A DNA stretch of 64,000 nucleotides from Rhodospirillales bacterium (lineage in GTDB: Bacteria > Pseudomonadota > Alphaproteobacteria > Rhodospirillales > Shumkoniaceae). The notes beneath the pieces were generated by a model, which made no database searches, was not told the origin of the DNA, and was given only the letters and a program-made list of their open reading frames with translations. Location of the stretch: positions 1-64,000 of the forward strand of contig JANQJG010000177.1 of NCBI GenBank assembly GCA_028281785.1, read 5' to 3'. This document shows, one piece after another, positions 36,437 through 44,175 of the stretch. Positions within the stretch are counted from its first letter, which is position 1; each line of letters starts with the position of its first letter. Made by a program: the position numbers and the translations under genes.

Positions 36437-36456
36437 AAACCGTGGAGCCGGTTTTT
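36437..36456 (+). terminator. Intrinsic terminator after mtnP
   Basis: AAACCG (36437–36442) pairs with CGGTTT (36449–36454) over a 6-base loop and is directly followed by further T residues (five Ts in all from 36452). It lies 38 bases after the mtnP stop and before the small cytochrome gene. This is the best rho-independent terminator seen in the window. Confidence 0.5.
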
Positions 36457-36546
36457 GCGTTTACGGATCGGAGTGGTAGAATCAATTCAGCGCCAGCCCA
36501 CGGCCGGCGGGGATGCGTCCGGGACAACGAGAAGAATGAGGTCGAT

Positions 36547-36939
36547 ATGTTTTTGAATTTTCCGACCCGCATGCTTTTGGGTTTGGGGGTCTGCTCAGCC
36601 CTTTCGCTGTGGCTGTCGAACGGTGTGGCGGCCGATCGCATCAGCTACAAGGACGACGTGTTTCCCATCATCGAGGTCCGCTGTCTGGAGTGCCATAAGC
36701 CCGGCGGCGAGGGCTATGAGACCAGCGGCCTGGATCTCTCCTCATACGAGACCTTGATGAAGGGCACCAAATTCGGCCCCATTGTCGTTCCGGGCCAAGC
36801 CTTCACCAGCAACCTCATGGTTCTGGTGGAGGGGCGGGCCTCGCCCGAGATTCAGATGCCGCACAACAAGAAGAAGCTCACCAAGCCGGAGATCAGCATC
36901 CTCAGGCGTTGGGTCAACGGCGGCGCCAAGGATAACTGA
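36547..36939 (+). CDS. Small c-type cytochrome with planctomycete-type cytochrome C domain
   Basis: A 130-residue exported protein with an N-terminal signal anchor (LLGLGVCSALSLWLSNGVAA) and one haem c motif CLECH (about residue 47). The segment DVFPIIEVRCLECHKPGG and SGLDLSSYETLMKG match the PSCyt1-type domain often found in planctomycetes and in some proteobacterial cytochromes. The start (MFLNF) follows GAGG. It lies between mtnP and the leftward bc1 genes and may be a periplasmic electron carrier; its partner is unknown. Confidence 0.82.
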   Translation: MFLNFPTRMLLGLGVCSALSLWLSNGVAADRISYKDDVFPIIEVRCLECHKPGGEGYETSGLDLSSYETLMKGTKFGPIVVPGQAFTSNLMVLVEGRASPEIQMPHNKKKLTKPEISILRRWVNGGAKDN

Positions 36940-38183: not shown

Positions 38184-38945
38184 TCAGTGTACGTCGGACC
38201 AGATCTGCCGTTTGAGCGCGTAAAGCATTCCCGTGAGCACGACCAGGAAGATCAGGACGGATATGCCCATGTTCTTCCTGGCCTCCATCTCCGGAGATGC
38301 GGCCCAGGTCATGAACACGGTCACGTCCTCGGCCATCTGCTCGATAGTAGCCGGGGTGCCGTCCTCGTATTCCACCTGATCCTCGACCATAGGTGCCGGC
38401 ATGGCGATTTGATGCCCCGGGAAGTAGTCGTTGTAATACATGCCGACGTTAAGCTCGAACCCCTCGGGTGGTTCATCTCGGTAGCCCACCAGAAGGGCAC
38501 GGATGTAGTCGGCCCCGCCTTCCCGGGCCTTGACGATGAGGGACAGGTCTAGCGGATAGGCGCCCCCGTTTGCCGCCCGCGCGGCCGCCTCGTTTTCAAA
38601 CGGCGAGACGAAGCGGTCGGCGGGCCGGGCCGGGCGGAAAAACATCTCGCCGTCCTCGTCGGGTCCGTCCTCGACCTCGTACTCGGCGGCGATCTCGGCA
38701 ATCTCGCCGCCGCTGAACCCGATGCTTCCGAGATTGCGATAGGCCACGCGTTTCATGGCGTGGCAACTGGAACACACCTCTTTGTAGACCTGGAATCCCC
38801 GGCGCAGGGCATCTCGATCATAGGTTCCGAAAAGCCCCGTGAAAGACCAGTCATGCGCCGGTGCCTCGGGGGTCTCGGCCGCCTGGGTCGCGCTGGCGGC
38901 CATAAGAGCCGCGCCGGCCAGCGCCGTGATCAGGAATCTGTGCAT
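38184..38945 (-). CDS. petC: Cytochrome c1, bc1 complex copy 1
   Basis: Haem c1 subunit of ubiquinol–cytochrome c oxidoreductase, 253 residues. It has a signal peptide (FLITALAGAALMAASATQA), haem motif CSSCH about residue 55, and the distal Met ligand region IAMPAPMVED. A C-terminal membrane anchor (LIFLVVLTGMLYALKRQIW) follows DVTVFMTWAASPEM. The start codon overlaps the petB stop by one base (TGATG). Expected periplasmic orientation with the C-terminus inside. Order petA-petB-petC is canonical. Confidence 0.95.
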   Translation of the reverse strand: MHRFLITALAGAALMAASATQAAETPEAPAHDWSFTGLFGTYDRDALRRGFQVYKEVCSSCHAMKRVAYRNLGSIGFSGGEIAEIAAEYEVEDGPDEDGEMFFRPARPADRFVSPFENEAAARAANGGAYPLDLSLIVKAREGGADYIRALLVGYRDEPPEGFELNVGMYYNDYFPGHQIAMPAPMVEDQVEYEDGTPATIEQMAEDVTVFMTWAASPEMEARKNMGISVLIFLVVLTGMLYALKRQIWSDVH

Positions 38946-40228
38946 CACGCCGTCCCCTCCGCCGCGAGACCGCGTCGCGTGACCGGCGTGCTGATGCTTT
39001 CGGGCAGCGGTCGCGGCCGCTCCAACCATCCGATCAGCGGAATGATCACCAGGAAGTGGAGGAAATAGTATGCCGTCGTGATCTTTCCGAGGTGGATGTA
39101 CTGGAACCACTCGACACCACCGAAGACGGGGTCATTCGGGGGATGCTTGCCGACGACCCCGAGCAAGATGCAGACCAGGAAGAAAATCCAGAAGAATTGC
39201 TTGTAGATGGGCCGGAAGCGGGCGCTGCGCACCGGGCTCCGGTCCAGCCAGGGCAGGAAGAACAGCACCGCGATGGAGGCGAACATGGCGATCACGCCGA
39301 TCAGCTTGGCGGAGACGAACCAGATGTCGAAGTCGATCGACCTGAGAATCGCATAGTAGGGCAGGAAGTACCATTCGGGCACGATATGCGGCGGGGTGAC
39401 CAGGGGATTCGCCGGTTCGTAGTTGATGGCTTCGCCGAAGAAGTCCGGGGCGAAGAAAACGAAGCCGAGATAGAAGATCATGAAGGCGCCGAGCCCGAAC
39501 GCATCCTTGATCGTGTAGTAGGGATGGAAGGGGATCGTGTCCTGCGGACCCTTGGTGTCGATGCCCAGCGGATTGTTGGACCTGTGGACATGCAGCGCCC
39601 AGAGATGGACGAAGACCAAGCCGAAGATCACGAAGGGCAGGAGGTAGTGCAGGGAGAAAAACCGGTTGAGCGTCGGGTTGTCCACCGAGAAACCGCCCCA
39701 CAGCCAGGTCACGATCGATTCACCGACCAGGGGAATGGCCGAGAACAGATTGGTGATCACCGTCGCCGCCCAGAAGCTCATCTGCCCCCAGGGCAGCACA
39801 TAGCCGACGAAGGCGGTGGCCATCATGGCGAATAGGATGAGCACGCCGACGATCCACAGGATCTCGCGCGGCGCCTTGTAGGAGCCGTAGTACAGGGCGC
39901 GAAACATGTGGATGTAGACGACCAGGAAGAACATCGAGGCGCCGTTCATGTGGAGATAGCGGATCAGCCAGCCATAGTTGACGTCCCGCATGATGCGTTC
40001 GACGCTGTCGAAGGCGTAATCGACATGGGGCGTGTAGTGCATCGCCAGGAAAACGCCGGTCGCGATCATGATGACCAGCGTGATTCCGGCCAGCGAGCCG
40101 AAATTCCACCAATAGCTCAGATTCTTCGGCGTCGGATAGTCCACCAGGTGGTGGTCCATGAAGGAAAACACCGGCAGCCGGTAATCGATCCACCGGATGA
40201 TGGGATTGTTCCAGGTGCGTGTCGTCAT
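38945..40228 (-). CDS. petB: Cytochrome b, bc1 complex copy 1
   Basis: Membrane subunit carrying haems bL and bH and the Qo and Qi quinone sites, 427 residues with eight predicted helices. Haem ligands are the paired His in helix B ([18 protein letters not shown]) and helix D ([15 protein letters not shown]). The Qo motif is PEWY ([15 protein letters not shown]). The sequence is close to canonical alphaproteobacterial cytochrome b. It is 10 bases after petA and overlaps petC by one base. Confidence 0.97.
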
Positions 40229-40237
40229 GCCTGCGCT

Positions 40238-40807
40238 TCAGCCAATTCGGATGGTTTCGTCATCGACGAAGGTGTAGGTCGGGATGTCGAGATTACGCGG
40301 CGCGGGGCCTTTGCGGATGCGACCCGAGGTGTCGTAGTGCGAGCCATGGCACGGGCAGAACCAGCCATCGAAGTCCCCCCGCGGGTCCGCGGAACGCTGC
40401 CCCAGCGGGATGCAGCCGAGATGCGTGCAAATGCCGAGGGTGACAAGCCATTCCGGTTTCTGGACTCGCTCCTCGTCGGATTGGGGATCGGGAAGATCAC
40501 CCAGATCGACCGCCCGAGCCGCCTCGATCTCTCCTATTGTACGACGGCGAATGAAAACCGGTTTTCCCCGCCAGACGACGGTGATGGCCTGGCCCTCCTC
40601 GATCGCCGACAGATCCACGTCGGTGGATGCCAGCGCCCTCACGTCGGCCGCCGGGTTCATGCTGTCTATGAAAGGCCACGCTGCCAGGCCCGCGCCAATT
40701 GCGCCGACCGTGGCCGTGGCGATGAGAAGAAAATCGCGCCGAGTTTCGTTCTCCCCGTCTGCCTCGCCCTCGGGAGCAGCGGTCGCGGAGTTCGCCGTGT
40801 CCGTCAT
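40238..40807 (-). CDS. petA: Rieske iron–sulfur protein, bc1 complex copy 1
   Basis: 2Fe-2S subunit of the bc1 complex, 189 residues. A Tat-like N-terminus ([19 protein letters not shown]) provides the membrane anchor. The cluster loops are fully canonical: CTHLGC and CPCHGS followed by HYD, including the Ser and Tyr whose hydroxyls hydrogen-bond the cluster and raise its potential. A GGAG ribosome site precedes the ATG. A candidate promoter lies about 110 bases upstream. It starts the first bc1 operon. Confidence 0.95.
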
Positions 40808-40916
40808 GAGTCTCCTCGTCTTGGCCCGCGCGGATCTTGTAACCCCGGGATGGCGGGACGCCGCGCAAGGTGCAGCAAAGGACGCGAGCTCCGGTCGCGC
40901 GGGTATTGAAATCAAA

Positions 40917-40945
40917 ATTAGTCAAGAGAAAGGATATACCGGCAA
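40917..40945 (-). promoter_or_regulatory. Candidate promoter of bc1 operon 1
   Basis: Read on the minus strand: TTGCCG, a 17-base spacer and ACTAAT, about 110 bases ahead of the petA start in a locally AT-rich stretch. Both hexamers match the sigma-70 consensus at four of six positions. No operator is obvious within it. Confidence 0.4.
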
Positions 40946-41057
40946 GCCGCGCGTGTGGAAAGCCCTAAGATCGCCCTGCTTTCCGGGTATTTCCCAAATT
41001 CCGCGTCACAACAATCCCGGGAATCGTCCATTGGCAGATCCAGCCCGCGTCATAGAT

Positions 41058-41085
41058 TTGTCATGCCCCACGGCGAGGGTATACC
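41058..41085 (+). promoter_or_regulatory. Candidate promoter of the cytochrome c gene
   Basis: TTGTCA (41058–41063), a 16-base spacer and TATACC (41080–41085), with the cytochrome c ATG at 41158. The -35 matches the consensus at five positions and the -10 at four. The -10 lies inside a perfect palindrome, described next. Confidence 0.5.
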
Positions 41086-41088
41086 CTC
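41075..41088. promoter_or_regulatory. Perfect 14-bp palindrome over the -10 of the cytochrome c promoter
   Basis: GAGGGTATACCCTC is a fully self-complementary 14-mer covering the predicted -10 element. It is immediately followed by a second inverted repeat CATAA-TGC-TTATG (41088–41100). The position predicts a repressor binding site, possibly for a dimeric redox or metal regulator. No matching known motif is recalled with confidence. Confidence 0.5.
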
Positions 41089-41157
41089 ATAATGCTTATG
41101 GCCTCTATATGAAGACTGAACCCGGGATTCCGAAGAAGAACTGGGAAGGGAACGAGA

Positions 41158-41571
41158 ATGCCACGTTTCGTGCTGCCGGTTTTGATGAGCGCCCTCATGG
41201 TCATGGCCACGGGCGGCCGCGCCCTGGGTGATGGCGACCCGGAAGTCGGACGCAACATCTTCGACCGCAAATGCAAGTCCTGCCACATCGCGGAAAAGGA
41301 TGGTCCCAAGCGGCGTGGGCCGAATCTGTTCGGCGTCGTCGATCGAAAGGCCGGCACATTGGAGGGGTTCAAATACGAGGAAGACTATGTCGTGGCGGGA
41401 AAGAACGGCCTCATCTGGTCGGAAAATGACATTGTCGCCTATCTCAACAACCCGAAGGCTTTCCTCCGCGAAAAATCAGGCAACCCCAAGGCCCGGCCGC
41501 GCATGGCCTTCCGAATCGCCTTCGAGCAGGATGCCCGCGCCATCGTCGCCTACCTGAGATCCCAGAAGTGA
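41158..41571 (+). CDS. Class I c-type cytochrome
   Basis: A 137-residue periplasmic cytochrome c: signal peptide (FVLPVLMSALMVMATGGRALG), haem motif CKSCH near residue 39, GPNLFGVVDRKAG and a Met-ligand region with PRMAFRI near 116. This matches soluble alphaproteobacterial cytochrome c2-like proteins that carry electrons from bc1 to the terminal oxidase. It lies between two bc1 operons, divergent from the first and convergent with the second, so it may serve either complex. Confidence 0.9.
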   Translation: MPRFVLPVLMSALMVMATGGRALGDGDPEVGRNIFDRKCKSCHIAEKDGPKRRGPNLFGVVDRKAGTLEGFKYEEDYVVAGKNGLIWSENDIVAYLNNPKAFLREKSGNPKARPRMAFRIAFEQDARAIVAYLRSQK

Positions 41572-41608
41572 ACCGAAGGGGGCAGAGGCCTTCCCGATTC
41601 TCCCCTGC

Positions 41609-42385
41609 TCAGTCCAGCCGCGCCCAGATTCGCCGTTTGAGAGCCAGCAGGAGGATAAAAAAGACGGCCAGAAACGCGACCACGCCGAGTCCCAGCCGGT
41701 TCCGGGCGTTGAGATGCGGATCGGCCGTCCAGGCCAGGAAGGCAACGATGTCGCGGGCGTATTGATCGACCGTTTCGGGCGTCCCGTCGTCATAGGCGAT
41801 CAGCCCGTCGCTCAGCGAAGGCTCCATGGCGATGGCCTGGCCCGGAAAGTAGGCATTGAAGAACCGACCTTCGGCCAAATCGAGAGCGGGCGGCGGCTCG
41901 GTGTATCCCGTCAGAAACGCGAACAGATAGTCCGGCCCGCCCCGGCGGGCCTTGACGATGAGTGAAAGTTCAGTTGGGAACACGCCGTCATTCGCCGTTC
42001 GCGCCGCCGCCTCGTTCAGATAGGGCAGGGCGAAGGGATCTTCGGGGCGGGCGCGGCGCATGAACAGCAAGCCCTGATCGTCGACGATGTCGCCGTATTC
42101 GTTGGGGCCGGCCGGAACCTCGTAGCCGGCGGCCAGGCTCTTCACCTCGTCATCGGCGAAGCCGAGGCCGCCGAGATCGCGAAAACGGATATGGTCGAGG
42201 GCGTGGCAACTCCAGCAGGCCTCGGCATAGACCTTGAAACCCCGGCGCGCGGCCGTGGCATCGTGGCCGCCGAGGGGACCTTCGAAGGACCAGCTCTGGT
42301 CCGGCGGCTCGGGGGCTTCGGAAGCGTGTGCTCCCGGCATCAGGAGTGCCGCCGAGACCGCCAGGGCCCTCGCCCAATTACGCAT
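41609..42385 (-). CDS. Cytochrome c1, bc1 complex copy 2
   Basis: A second cytochrome c1, 258 residues. It has a signal peptide (MRNWARALAVSAALLMPGAHA), haem motif CWSCH, Met ligand in AIAMEPSLSDG (canonical MPPPL changed to MEPSL), and a C-terminal anchor (VVAFLAVFFILLLALKRRIW). It is clearly homologous to the copy at 38184 but divergent along its length. It overlaps the end of petB copy 2 by eight bases; GGAGG precedes the ATG. Intact reading frame argues it is functional. Confidence 0.92.
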   Translation of the reverse strand: MRNWARALAVSAALLMPGAHASEAPEPPDQSWSFEGPLGGHDATAARRGFKVYAEACWSCHALDHIRFRDLGGLGFADDEVKSLAAGYEVPAGPNEYGDIVDDQGLLFMRRARPEDPFALPYLNEAAARTANDGVFPTELSLIVKARRGGPDYLFAFLTGYTEPPPALDLAEGRFFNAYFPGQAIAMEPSLSDGLIAYDDGTPETVDQYARDIVAFLAWTADPHLNARNRLGLGVVAFLAVFFILLLALKRRIWARLD

Positions 42386-43619
42386 GGGAGCGCCTCCGGC
42401 GACTGGCTCGCCTCTCCATAATGGCGGCGGAAATGCTCTGCGGCAGGGCGCGCGGCCGCTCGAAAACGGCGATGGCCGGCACCAGAACCAGGAAGTGAGC
42501 GAAGTAGTAGGCGGTCCCGATGCGCGCCAGAAGCAGGGGCACGCCCTCGGCCGGTTGGGTACCGGCATAGGCCAAGAGCACGCAATCCGCGACCAGAATC
42601 CAGAAGAGAACCCTGTAGATCGGGCGAAATCGGGCGCTGCGCACCGGCGATCGGTCCAGCCAGGGCATCGCGAAAAGCACCAGAATCGCGCCCAGCATCG
42701 CGACGATTCCCAGTATTTTGAAGGGGATGGCCTTGAGCATCGCGTAGAAGGGCAGGAGGTACCATTCCGGAACGATCAGATGTGGCGTCGACAGGGGGTC
42801 GGCGGGCTGGAAGTTTTCCGCCGGGGTCAGCAGGTCGGGAGCAAAGAACACGAACCCCGCGAGGACAAGCAGGAACCCGGCCAGTGCCAACATGTCCTGA
42901 ATCGTGAAAAAGGGGTGGAACGGGATCACGTCCCGGCTGTCCTGGACCTCGATCCCGAGCGGGTTGTTGGAGCGCTGGGCGTGCAGCGCCCAGACATGGG
43001 CGGCGGCCACCGCCGCGATGACGAAGGGCAGGAAAAAGTGCAGCGCATAAAACCGCGCGAGCGTCGGGTTGCCGACCTCGTATCCGCCCCGGATATAAGC
43101 CACCACGTCCTCTCCGACGACCGGAACCGCCGTGACCATGCTGGTCACCACCGTCGCCGCCCAATAGCTCATCTGCCCCCAGGGGAGGACATAGCCCATG
43201 AAGGCCGTGGGAATCATCAGGGCGAGCAGGGCCACGCCCAGCGACCAAAGGACCTCCCGCGGCGCCTTGTAGGAACCATAGTAGAGGCCGCGGAACGTGT
43301 GGATATAGACGACGGCGAAGAACAGCGAGGCCGCGTGCGCGTGGAGCGGCCGGATCAGCCAGCCATAGGGAACATCCCTGACGATGCGTTGCACGCTTGC
43401 GAAGGCGAAGTCGGCATGGGGCGTGTAGTGCATGGCCAGGAAAACGCCGGAGACGATGAGCACGAGCAAAGCGGTGCCGGATAGGAAACCGAAGCTCCAC
43501 CAATAGTTCAGGTTTCGCGGCTGCGGATAGTCGACGAGTTCGCCGCGCAGAAAGGAGATGATCGGCCAGCGGCGGTCGATCCATCCAAGAAGCCCGCGTG
43601 TCCTGTCGGCGTTCTCCAT
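42378..43619 (-). CDS. Cytochrome b, bc1 complex copy 2
   Basis: A second full-length cytochrome b, 413 residues. The four haem-ligand His are retained (RPLHAHAAS, YIHTFR, ALHFFLPF, AAHVWALH) and so is the Qo PEWY motif (IVPEWYLLPFYAMLK). Differences from copy 1 include HAHAAS in place of HMNGAS, altering the usually invariant Asn-Gly near haem bL/bH, and a more variable helix C–D region. The frame is open and motif-complete, so it should assemble. Confidence 0.94.
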   Translation of the reverse strand: MENADRTRGLLGWIDRRWPIISFLRGELVDYPQPRNLNYWWSFGFLSGTALLVLIVSGVFLAMHYTPHADFAFASVQRIVRDVPYGWLIRPLHAHAASLFFAVVYIHTFRGLYYGSYKAPREVLWSLGVALLALMIPTAFMGYVLPWGQMSYWAATVVTSMVTAVPVVGEDVVAYIRGGYEVGNPTLARFYALHFFLPFVIAAVAAAHVWALHAQRSNNPLGIEVQDSRDVIPFHPFFTIQDMLALAGFLLVLAGFVFFAPDLLTPAENFQPADPLSTPHLIVPEWYLLPFYAMLKAIPFKILGIVAMLGAILVLFAMPWLDRSPVRSARFRPIYRVLFWILVADCVLLAYAGTQPAEGVPLLLARIGTAYYFAHFLVLVPAIAVFERPRALPQSISAAIMERRASRRRRSHA

Positions 43620-43629
43620 GGCGTCGATC

Positions 43630-44175
43630 TCAGCCGATCACCAGGGTGCCGTCGTCTCGGAAGTCATGTGGGGGAACCGGTAGATTGCTTGGCGAAGGCC
43701 CCGCGCGCACGCGGCCGGATTCATCGAAATGCGACCCATGGCAGGAGCAGAACCAACCGCCGTAGTCACCGCGAGGTTCGCCGTCGCGCTGGCCCTGAAG
43801 AACACAGCCGAGATGTGGGCAGACGCCGAGGACGACCAGCCATTGCGCGCGGCGGACCCGCGTGTCATCGGGCTCCGGGCTGGGGAGGTCCTCCAGCGCG
43901 ACCGCCCTCGCGGCCGAGATCTCGGCCTCCGTTCGATGCCGGATGAAGACCGGTTTCCCCCGCCAGACCACGGTAATAGCCTGCCCCTCCGCCACAGGGG
44001 TCAGGTCGACATCTATCGTGGCCAGGGCGCGCGCCTCCGCGCCGGGTCCCAGGCTCGCGATGAATGGCCACGCCGCCAGGCCCGCCCCGGCGGCGCCCAT
44101 CGTCCAGGCGGCGAGGCCGAGGACATCGCGCCGAGGCCTGTTCGCGCTCGTTGTCTTCGTCGGGTCGGTGGTCAT
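43630..44175 (-). CDS. Rieske iron–sulfur protein, bc1 complex copy 2 (altered cluster loops)
   Basis: A second Rieske subunit, 181 residues, with a twin-arginine-like leader (RRDVLGLAAWTMGAAGAG). The four ligands and the disulfide cysteines remain, but the loops read CPHLGC and CSCHGS instead of CTHLGC and CPCHGS. The following Tyr is Phe (HGSHFD). In characterised Rieske proteins that Tyr hydrogen-bonds a cluster-ligand sulfur and its loss lowers the midpoint potential, so this copy probably works at lower potential than copy 1. GAGGAAAC precedes the start. Confidence 0.92.
   Translation of the reverse strand: MTTDPTKTTSANRPRRDVLGLAAWTMGAAGAGLAAWPFIASLGPGAEARALATIDVDLTPVAEGQAITVVWRGKPVFIRHRTEAEISAARAVALEDLPSPEPDDTRVRRAQWLVVLGVCPHLGCVLQGQRDGEPRGDYGGWFCSCHGSHFDESGRVRAGPSPSNLPVPPHDFRDDGTLVIG

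Follow-up and report, generated by a model that had tools for sequence, protein, structure and literature searches.

Complex III is as a rule encoded once and is highly conserved. The window analyzed here, a stretch of 64,000 nucleotides from a Rhodospirillales bacterium, had been read from its letters as holding two complete petA-petB-petC sets for this enzyme, both leftward, on either side of a class I cytochrome c gene. Are both sets real, which of them is the inherited one, and what might the other be for? We recovered all seven open frames of this arrangement and call the canonical set A and the divergent one set B (G002 and G004 are genomes of the same family):

38184..38945, minus strand: petC, cytochrome c1, set A (canonical); Pfam Cytochrom_C1, E 8.7e-98; 64% to G002/G004
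38945..40228, minus strand: petB, cytochrome b, set A; Pfam Cytochrome_B; 75-76% to G002/G004; 0/103 near-invariant columns altered
40238..40807, minus strand: petA, Rieske protein, set A (CTHLGC...CPCHGSHYD); TIGR01416, 233 bits; 74% to G002/G004
40808..41157, no strand: intergenic region between the divergent petA of set A and the cytochrome c gene; from the gene layout, likely to hold the promoters of both
41158..41571, plus strand: class I mono-haem cytochrome c (P0004); Pfam Cytochrom_C, E 1e-8
41609..42385, minus strand: petC, cytochrome c1, set B (divergent); Pfam Cytochrom_C1, E 1.5e-77; CxxCH and Met ligand present
42378..43619, minus strand: petB, cytochrome b, set B; Pfam Cytochrome_B; K241Q at the Qi site; 6/103 near-invariant columns altered
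43630..44175, minus strand: petA, Rieske protein, set B (CPHLGC...CSCHGSHFD, GPSP); TIGR01416, 187 bits

Both sets are intact by every feature we compared. In searches against the Pfam and NCBIfam families, the N- and C-terminal Cytochrome_B domains were found in one chain in each set, both Rieske proteins scored over the TIGR01416 (Rieske_proteo) cut-off of 97 bits and carried the UCR_Fe-S_N TAT signal, and both c1 proteins matched Cytochrom_C1 over the full length, with a hydrophobic C-terminal anchor visible by eye on each. The alignment confirmed the earlier claim that no haem or iron-sulfur ligand is missing from either set: the four haem histidines and the PEWY motif of cytochrome b, the CxxCH and the Met ligand of c1, and the C-x-H/C-x-C-H ligands and disulphide Cys pair of the Rieske protein are present in A and B. 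In the source genome (5.24 Mb in 254 contigs, 97.5% complete), exactly two full genes encode a bc1 cytochrome b, both at this locus. Protein identity between A and B is 57% for cytochrome b, 47% for c1 and 61-63% for the Rieske protein, and identity at fourfold sites (0.42-0.55) is slightly over the composition expectation of 0.36-0.41. An assembly duplication or contamination was ruled out, because protein identity is low (47-63%) and the flanks on both sides match those of relatives within one 136 kb contig.

The cytochrome c gene P0004 stands head-to-head with set A on one side and tail-to-tail with set B on the other, and its product is a possible electron acceptor. Its closest relatives (42-46%) are at other loci in G001, G002 and G004; since the family genomes have no relative at the petA-trmL locus, we rejected P0004 as an orthologous marker. 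A sigma-70 scan of 40808..41157 returned one weak match, at chance level, and a terminator scan was likewise uninformative, while a scan for FNR-type boxes, taken as a possible sign of low-oxygen control, gave 11 matches where 11.5 were expected, with none close to either operon. Also near the bc1 genes, at 36442-36939 of the window, is a small PSCyt1 (Planctomycete-type cytochrome c) gene that is conserved in G002, G004, G013 and G499.

Two bc1 sets in one genome are already known (Acidithiobacillus, Mesorhizobium) and are rare in this order. Cytochrome b of bc1 was found in 299 of 317 genomes of the order, nearly all with one copy, and in 319 of 386 sampled genomes of the class; nearly every genome searched at either level has one set, in line with what the sequence-only reading had supposed of most alphaproteobacteria. 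A second set, or a second cytochrome b gene elsewhere, occurs in genomes that include G494, G499, G521, G595 and G594. The copies are on separate contigs in every other genome with a double match, and several double matches are a single gene split between contigs. Side-by-side sets were seen in this genome only, among about 698 distinct genomes (G000-G697). Two further matches deserve mention: a second cytochrome b-like stretch (L232, G385:C34; about 50%) has five in-frame TGA codons and is perhaps a pseudogene, and a contig labeled Stygiobacter (Ignavibacteriota; L072) bears a Magnetospirillum-like bc1 operon and is probably misbinned.

Gene neighborhood and tree both show that set A is the inherited bc1 of the family. 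The gene order in G002 and G004 is mtaP, PSCyt, MFS, a single petCBA, arsR with a cation-efflux gene, trmL, hemF and pcnB, with ychF before mtaP seen in G002; in G013 and others, petA directly adjoins trmL. Set A retains the mtaP/PSCyt/MFS neighbors and shares 75-76% cytochrome b identity with G002 and G004, and in trees built from the concatenation of the three bc1 subunits it grouped with these two genomes (96-98/92-97). Set B and the cytochrome c gene fill the space between A and trmL, where G002 and G004 have unrelated genes, namely the arsR-type regulator and cation-efflux gene (L146, 11069-12043, in G002; L147, 7661-8578, in G004). The petA-trmL gap thus seems open to insertions. The set at 38184–40807 had been called canonical, which its grouping with G002 and G004 bears out. 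The set at 41609–44175 had been described as more diverged and as occupying the ancestral position beside trmL–hemF; it is the more diverged set, but the inherited copy is A.

In the best tree set B joins the sole bc1 of G003, a genome of the same family (95-100/97-98). Both branches are long, that of B being 1.2-1.5, and the composition of B is odd, so the join may be long-branch attraction. Seven residues are private to B and G003 and none to A and B; B also has seven in common with the accessory bc1 of G499. Grouping B with the second sets of G499 and G494 (family f31) alone was not preferred (AU p 0.12); once G003 is added to that group, it is equal to the best tree (difference 0.09). An insert after PEWY in cytochrome b is present in A, G002 and G004 and absent in B and G003; we rejected it as a rare genomic marker and count it as weak evidence, because it comes and goes across the order. 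The sole bc1 of G003 is not near trmL but next to an aa3 oxidase cluster (L145, 1251-13170), in a genome that has no hemF. We conclude from these comparisons that B is of alphaproteobacterial origin and most likely shares its bc1 lineage with the one set of G003.

The sequence-only reading had proposed a tandem duplication followed by specialization. In such a scenario, A would have been duplicated within this lineage and retained its original role, with B then diverging at great speed. The two sets are adjacent, in the same orientation and in the same gene order, as such an event would leave them. Forcing A and B to be sisters cost 20 log-likelihood units with G003 in the tree, at an AU p of 0.17, and with G003 left out the sister arrangement fitted marginally better than the unconstrained tree (AU p 0.56). 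With B and G003 both on long branches, these values keep duplication as a real but lesser possibility; the best tree, the lack of any residue private to A and B, and the homoplasious PEWY insert that B and G003 lack all speak against it. A placement of the sets in unrelated phyla, the outcome named beforehand as refuting duplication, was not found. Transfer of B from a distant phylum would account for its strong divergence from A, but is very unlikely: the best matches searched are all alphaproteobacterial, B reaches a maximum of 62% identity to anything found in the class search, a genome-wide scan for B relatives gave almost only alphaproteobacterial sequences at <=57%, and B groups with a genome of its own family.

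We then compared the near-invariant columns of the three subunits (103 in cytochrome b, 29 in c1 and 34 in the Rieske protein) with 131 to 138 relatives. Set A departs at a single such column across all three subunits (c1 P135L), and set B at 6/103 in cytochrome b, 2/29 in c1 and 5/34 in the Rieske protein, the last being more than in any of the 131 other Rieske proteins (maximum 4). In set-A numbering these five are F26V, T128P, P134L, P152S and A169S; Y158F comes in addition, where 122/131 sequences have Tyr. Four of the five fall at the cluster tip and in the proline loop. The cluster-binding loops contain T128, P152 and Y158, the proline loop contains A169, and the resulting tip changes (T to P, P to S, Y to F and A to S) are near-unique to B. 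The high-potential Rieske subgroup is marked by hydrogen bonds from a Ser and a Tyr; A has both residues, whereas B keeps the Ser and has Phe in place of the Tyr, which puts it outside this subgroup. In cytochrome b, B has K241Q at the Qi site, where Lys occupies 136/138 rows; from alignment knowledge we take this position to be Lys251 of Rhodobacter capsulatus. Both cytochrome b proteins of the window (38945-40228 and 42378-43619) have Ala at the WGQMSxWG position of the Qo site, which is Gly in 117/138 relatives and is the site of the known strobilurin-resistance change G143A.

In the yeast Rieske protein, loss of the Tyr or the Ser hydrogen bond lowers Em by 65 or 130 mV, respectively (PMC12954380), and Tyr165Phe has been linked to reduced activity (PMC10715153). 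The residue beside the first Rieske His is tied to quinone reactivity and not to potential (PMC3758308). Anammox Kustd1480 has Phe yet a potential of +335 mV, and F128Y in the arsenite oxidase of NT-26 was without effect (PMC12954380, PMC3758308). In R. capsulatus, growth is normal with K251M, but the rate of the reverse Qi reaction drops from 400 to 80 per second (PMC5001787). We consider the potential of the B Rieske cluster to be probably altered, and lower. The residue changes fit the earlier suggestion of specialization for a different quinone or acceptor potential, and a different acceptor potential is what the Rieske tip most readily suggests.

The changes at the tip of B could also stem from relaxed constraint. 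B might be a decaying or low-value set, intact but loosely constrained and perhaps assembled with little turnover, a state resembling that of the deranged bc1 in acidophilic Acetobacteraceae, as its very long branch and the altered, otherwise invariant tip residues would suggest. We regard this as unlikely, given that B, unlike the deranged enzymes, has three open frames and every ligand (PMC10715153). Intact frames and ligands, together with 97/103 near-invariant cytochrome b columns kept despite extreme divergence, argue for selection on the function of B. A second bc1 with an adjoining cytochrome c gene, for which dual bc1 systems offer a precedent (PMC2621215), also raises the idea that electron flow through B is reversed (uphill), with a high-potential cytochrome c as the donor for quinone reduction, in the manner of PetI from Acidithiobacillus ferrooxidans. 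This is very unlikely: the cytochrome is mono-haem and not a c4, the block has no sdrA-like gene, and the Qi lysine is gone. Its replacement favors the forward direction, as K251M slows the reverse reaction (PMC5001787).

The reading that we favor, at somewhat better than even confidence, is that A is the housekeeping enzyme and B an accessory, forward-running bc1 from a G003-like lineage whose Rieske potential has changed, probably to a lower value. Set A would be the inherited housekeeping ubiquinol:cytochrome c oxidoreductase and B a complete accessory bc1 placed between A and trmL. B would run the Q-cycle forward with its Rieske cluster at a changed, probably lower, potential and with a slower or different proton step at the Qi site, and would deliver its electrons to one specific cytochrome c, possibly the neighboring P0004, under some growth condition. 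With the iron-sulfur and quinone sites altered in the second set, the bacterium probably operates complex III in two versions with different tuning. With an altered B beside an unaltered A, nature supplies a comparison, within one cell, of the effects that Rieske potential and Qi protonation have on the Q-cycle.

Other accessory sets of the order show related changes. In G499 and G494 a second bc1 lies near a PQQ-dependent alcohol dehydrogenase gene (TIGR03075) and class I cytochrome c genes (L224, 5318-11298, in G499; L226, 9966-14850, in G494, with a PedF-type c550). A second set in G595 (L230, 7901-10314) has petB and petC fused in one frame. The Rieske tips of these second sets read CNHLGC/CPCHGSHF in G499 (T to N, Y to F), CTHLGC/CSCHGAQY in G494 (P to S, S to A) and CTHLGC/CPCHGAHY in G595 (S to A), and the second set of G521 has T, P, S and Y all unchanged. 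Counting B, the tip is altered from T/P/S/Y in 4/5 readable accessory sets, compared with 0/30 canonical sets from the order (Fisher 1e-4). Leaving out B, from which the idea for the test came, gives about 7e-4 when worked by hand. The sample is small and includes two second sets, those of G499 and G494, that form a sister pair, and the test followed the discovery of the pattern. We tentatively raise the possibility that the accessory bc1 complexes of the order are a recurrent, independently evolved class, each near its own cytochrome c and with a repeatedly retuned Rieske tip. If so, a cell with such a set would have complex III at two potentials, for different donors and acceptors. The recurrence of tip changes across separate second sets offers a testable rule on why bacteria keep two.

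Among known systems, A. ferrooxidans likewise has two complete sets, petI and petII, and a linked c-type cytochrome gene, with proposed roles in iron and sulfur oxidation (PMC2621215). Its petI has sdrA and a c4 cytochrome, whereas here there is a single mono-haem cytochrome c, and neither sdrA nor any dehydrogenase gene was found in the block by gene list and Pfam. Mesorhizobium loti MAFF303099 (mll2707, mlr0970) is also an alphaproteobacterium with a second bc1 cluster, one that is expressed only at low oxygen; only a cytochrome b gene is reported beside the Rieske gene in that cluster, and its Rieske pair, unlike A and B, is 79% identical and has Ser and Tyr in both members (PMC6256036). 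In the deranged bc1 of Acetobacteraceae, the long Rieske protein of acetous taxa has Tyr165 changed to Phe, as in B, but the deranged enzymes of acidophiles lose haem bH or cluster ligands, while B has every ligand (PMC10715153). The second bc1 of G499 and G494 resembles B in being accessory, in its altered Rieske tip and in its nearness to class I cytochrome c, and differs in lying at a separate locus beside a PQQ alcohol dehydrogenase gene and in not being the sister of B in the best tree. The sets described here match the canonical alphaproteobacterial petABC operons (Paracoccus, 2YIU; Rhodobacter, 1ZRT/2FYN) in gene order, domains, ligands and TAT-type Rieske N-terminus, and B is set apart from these operons by its near-unique Rieske-tip changes, by Lys to Gln at the Qi site and by the tandem arrangement of the two sets.
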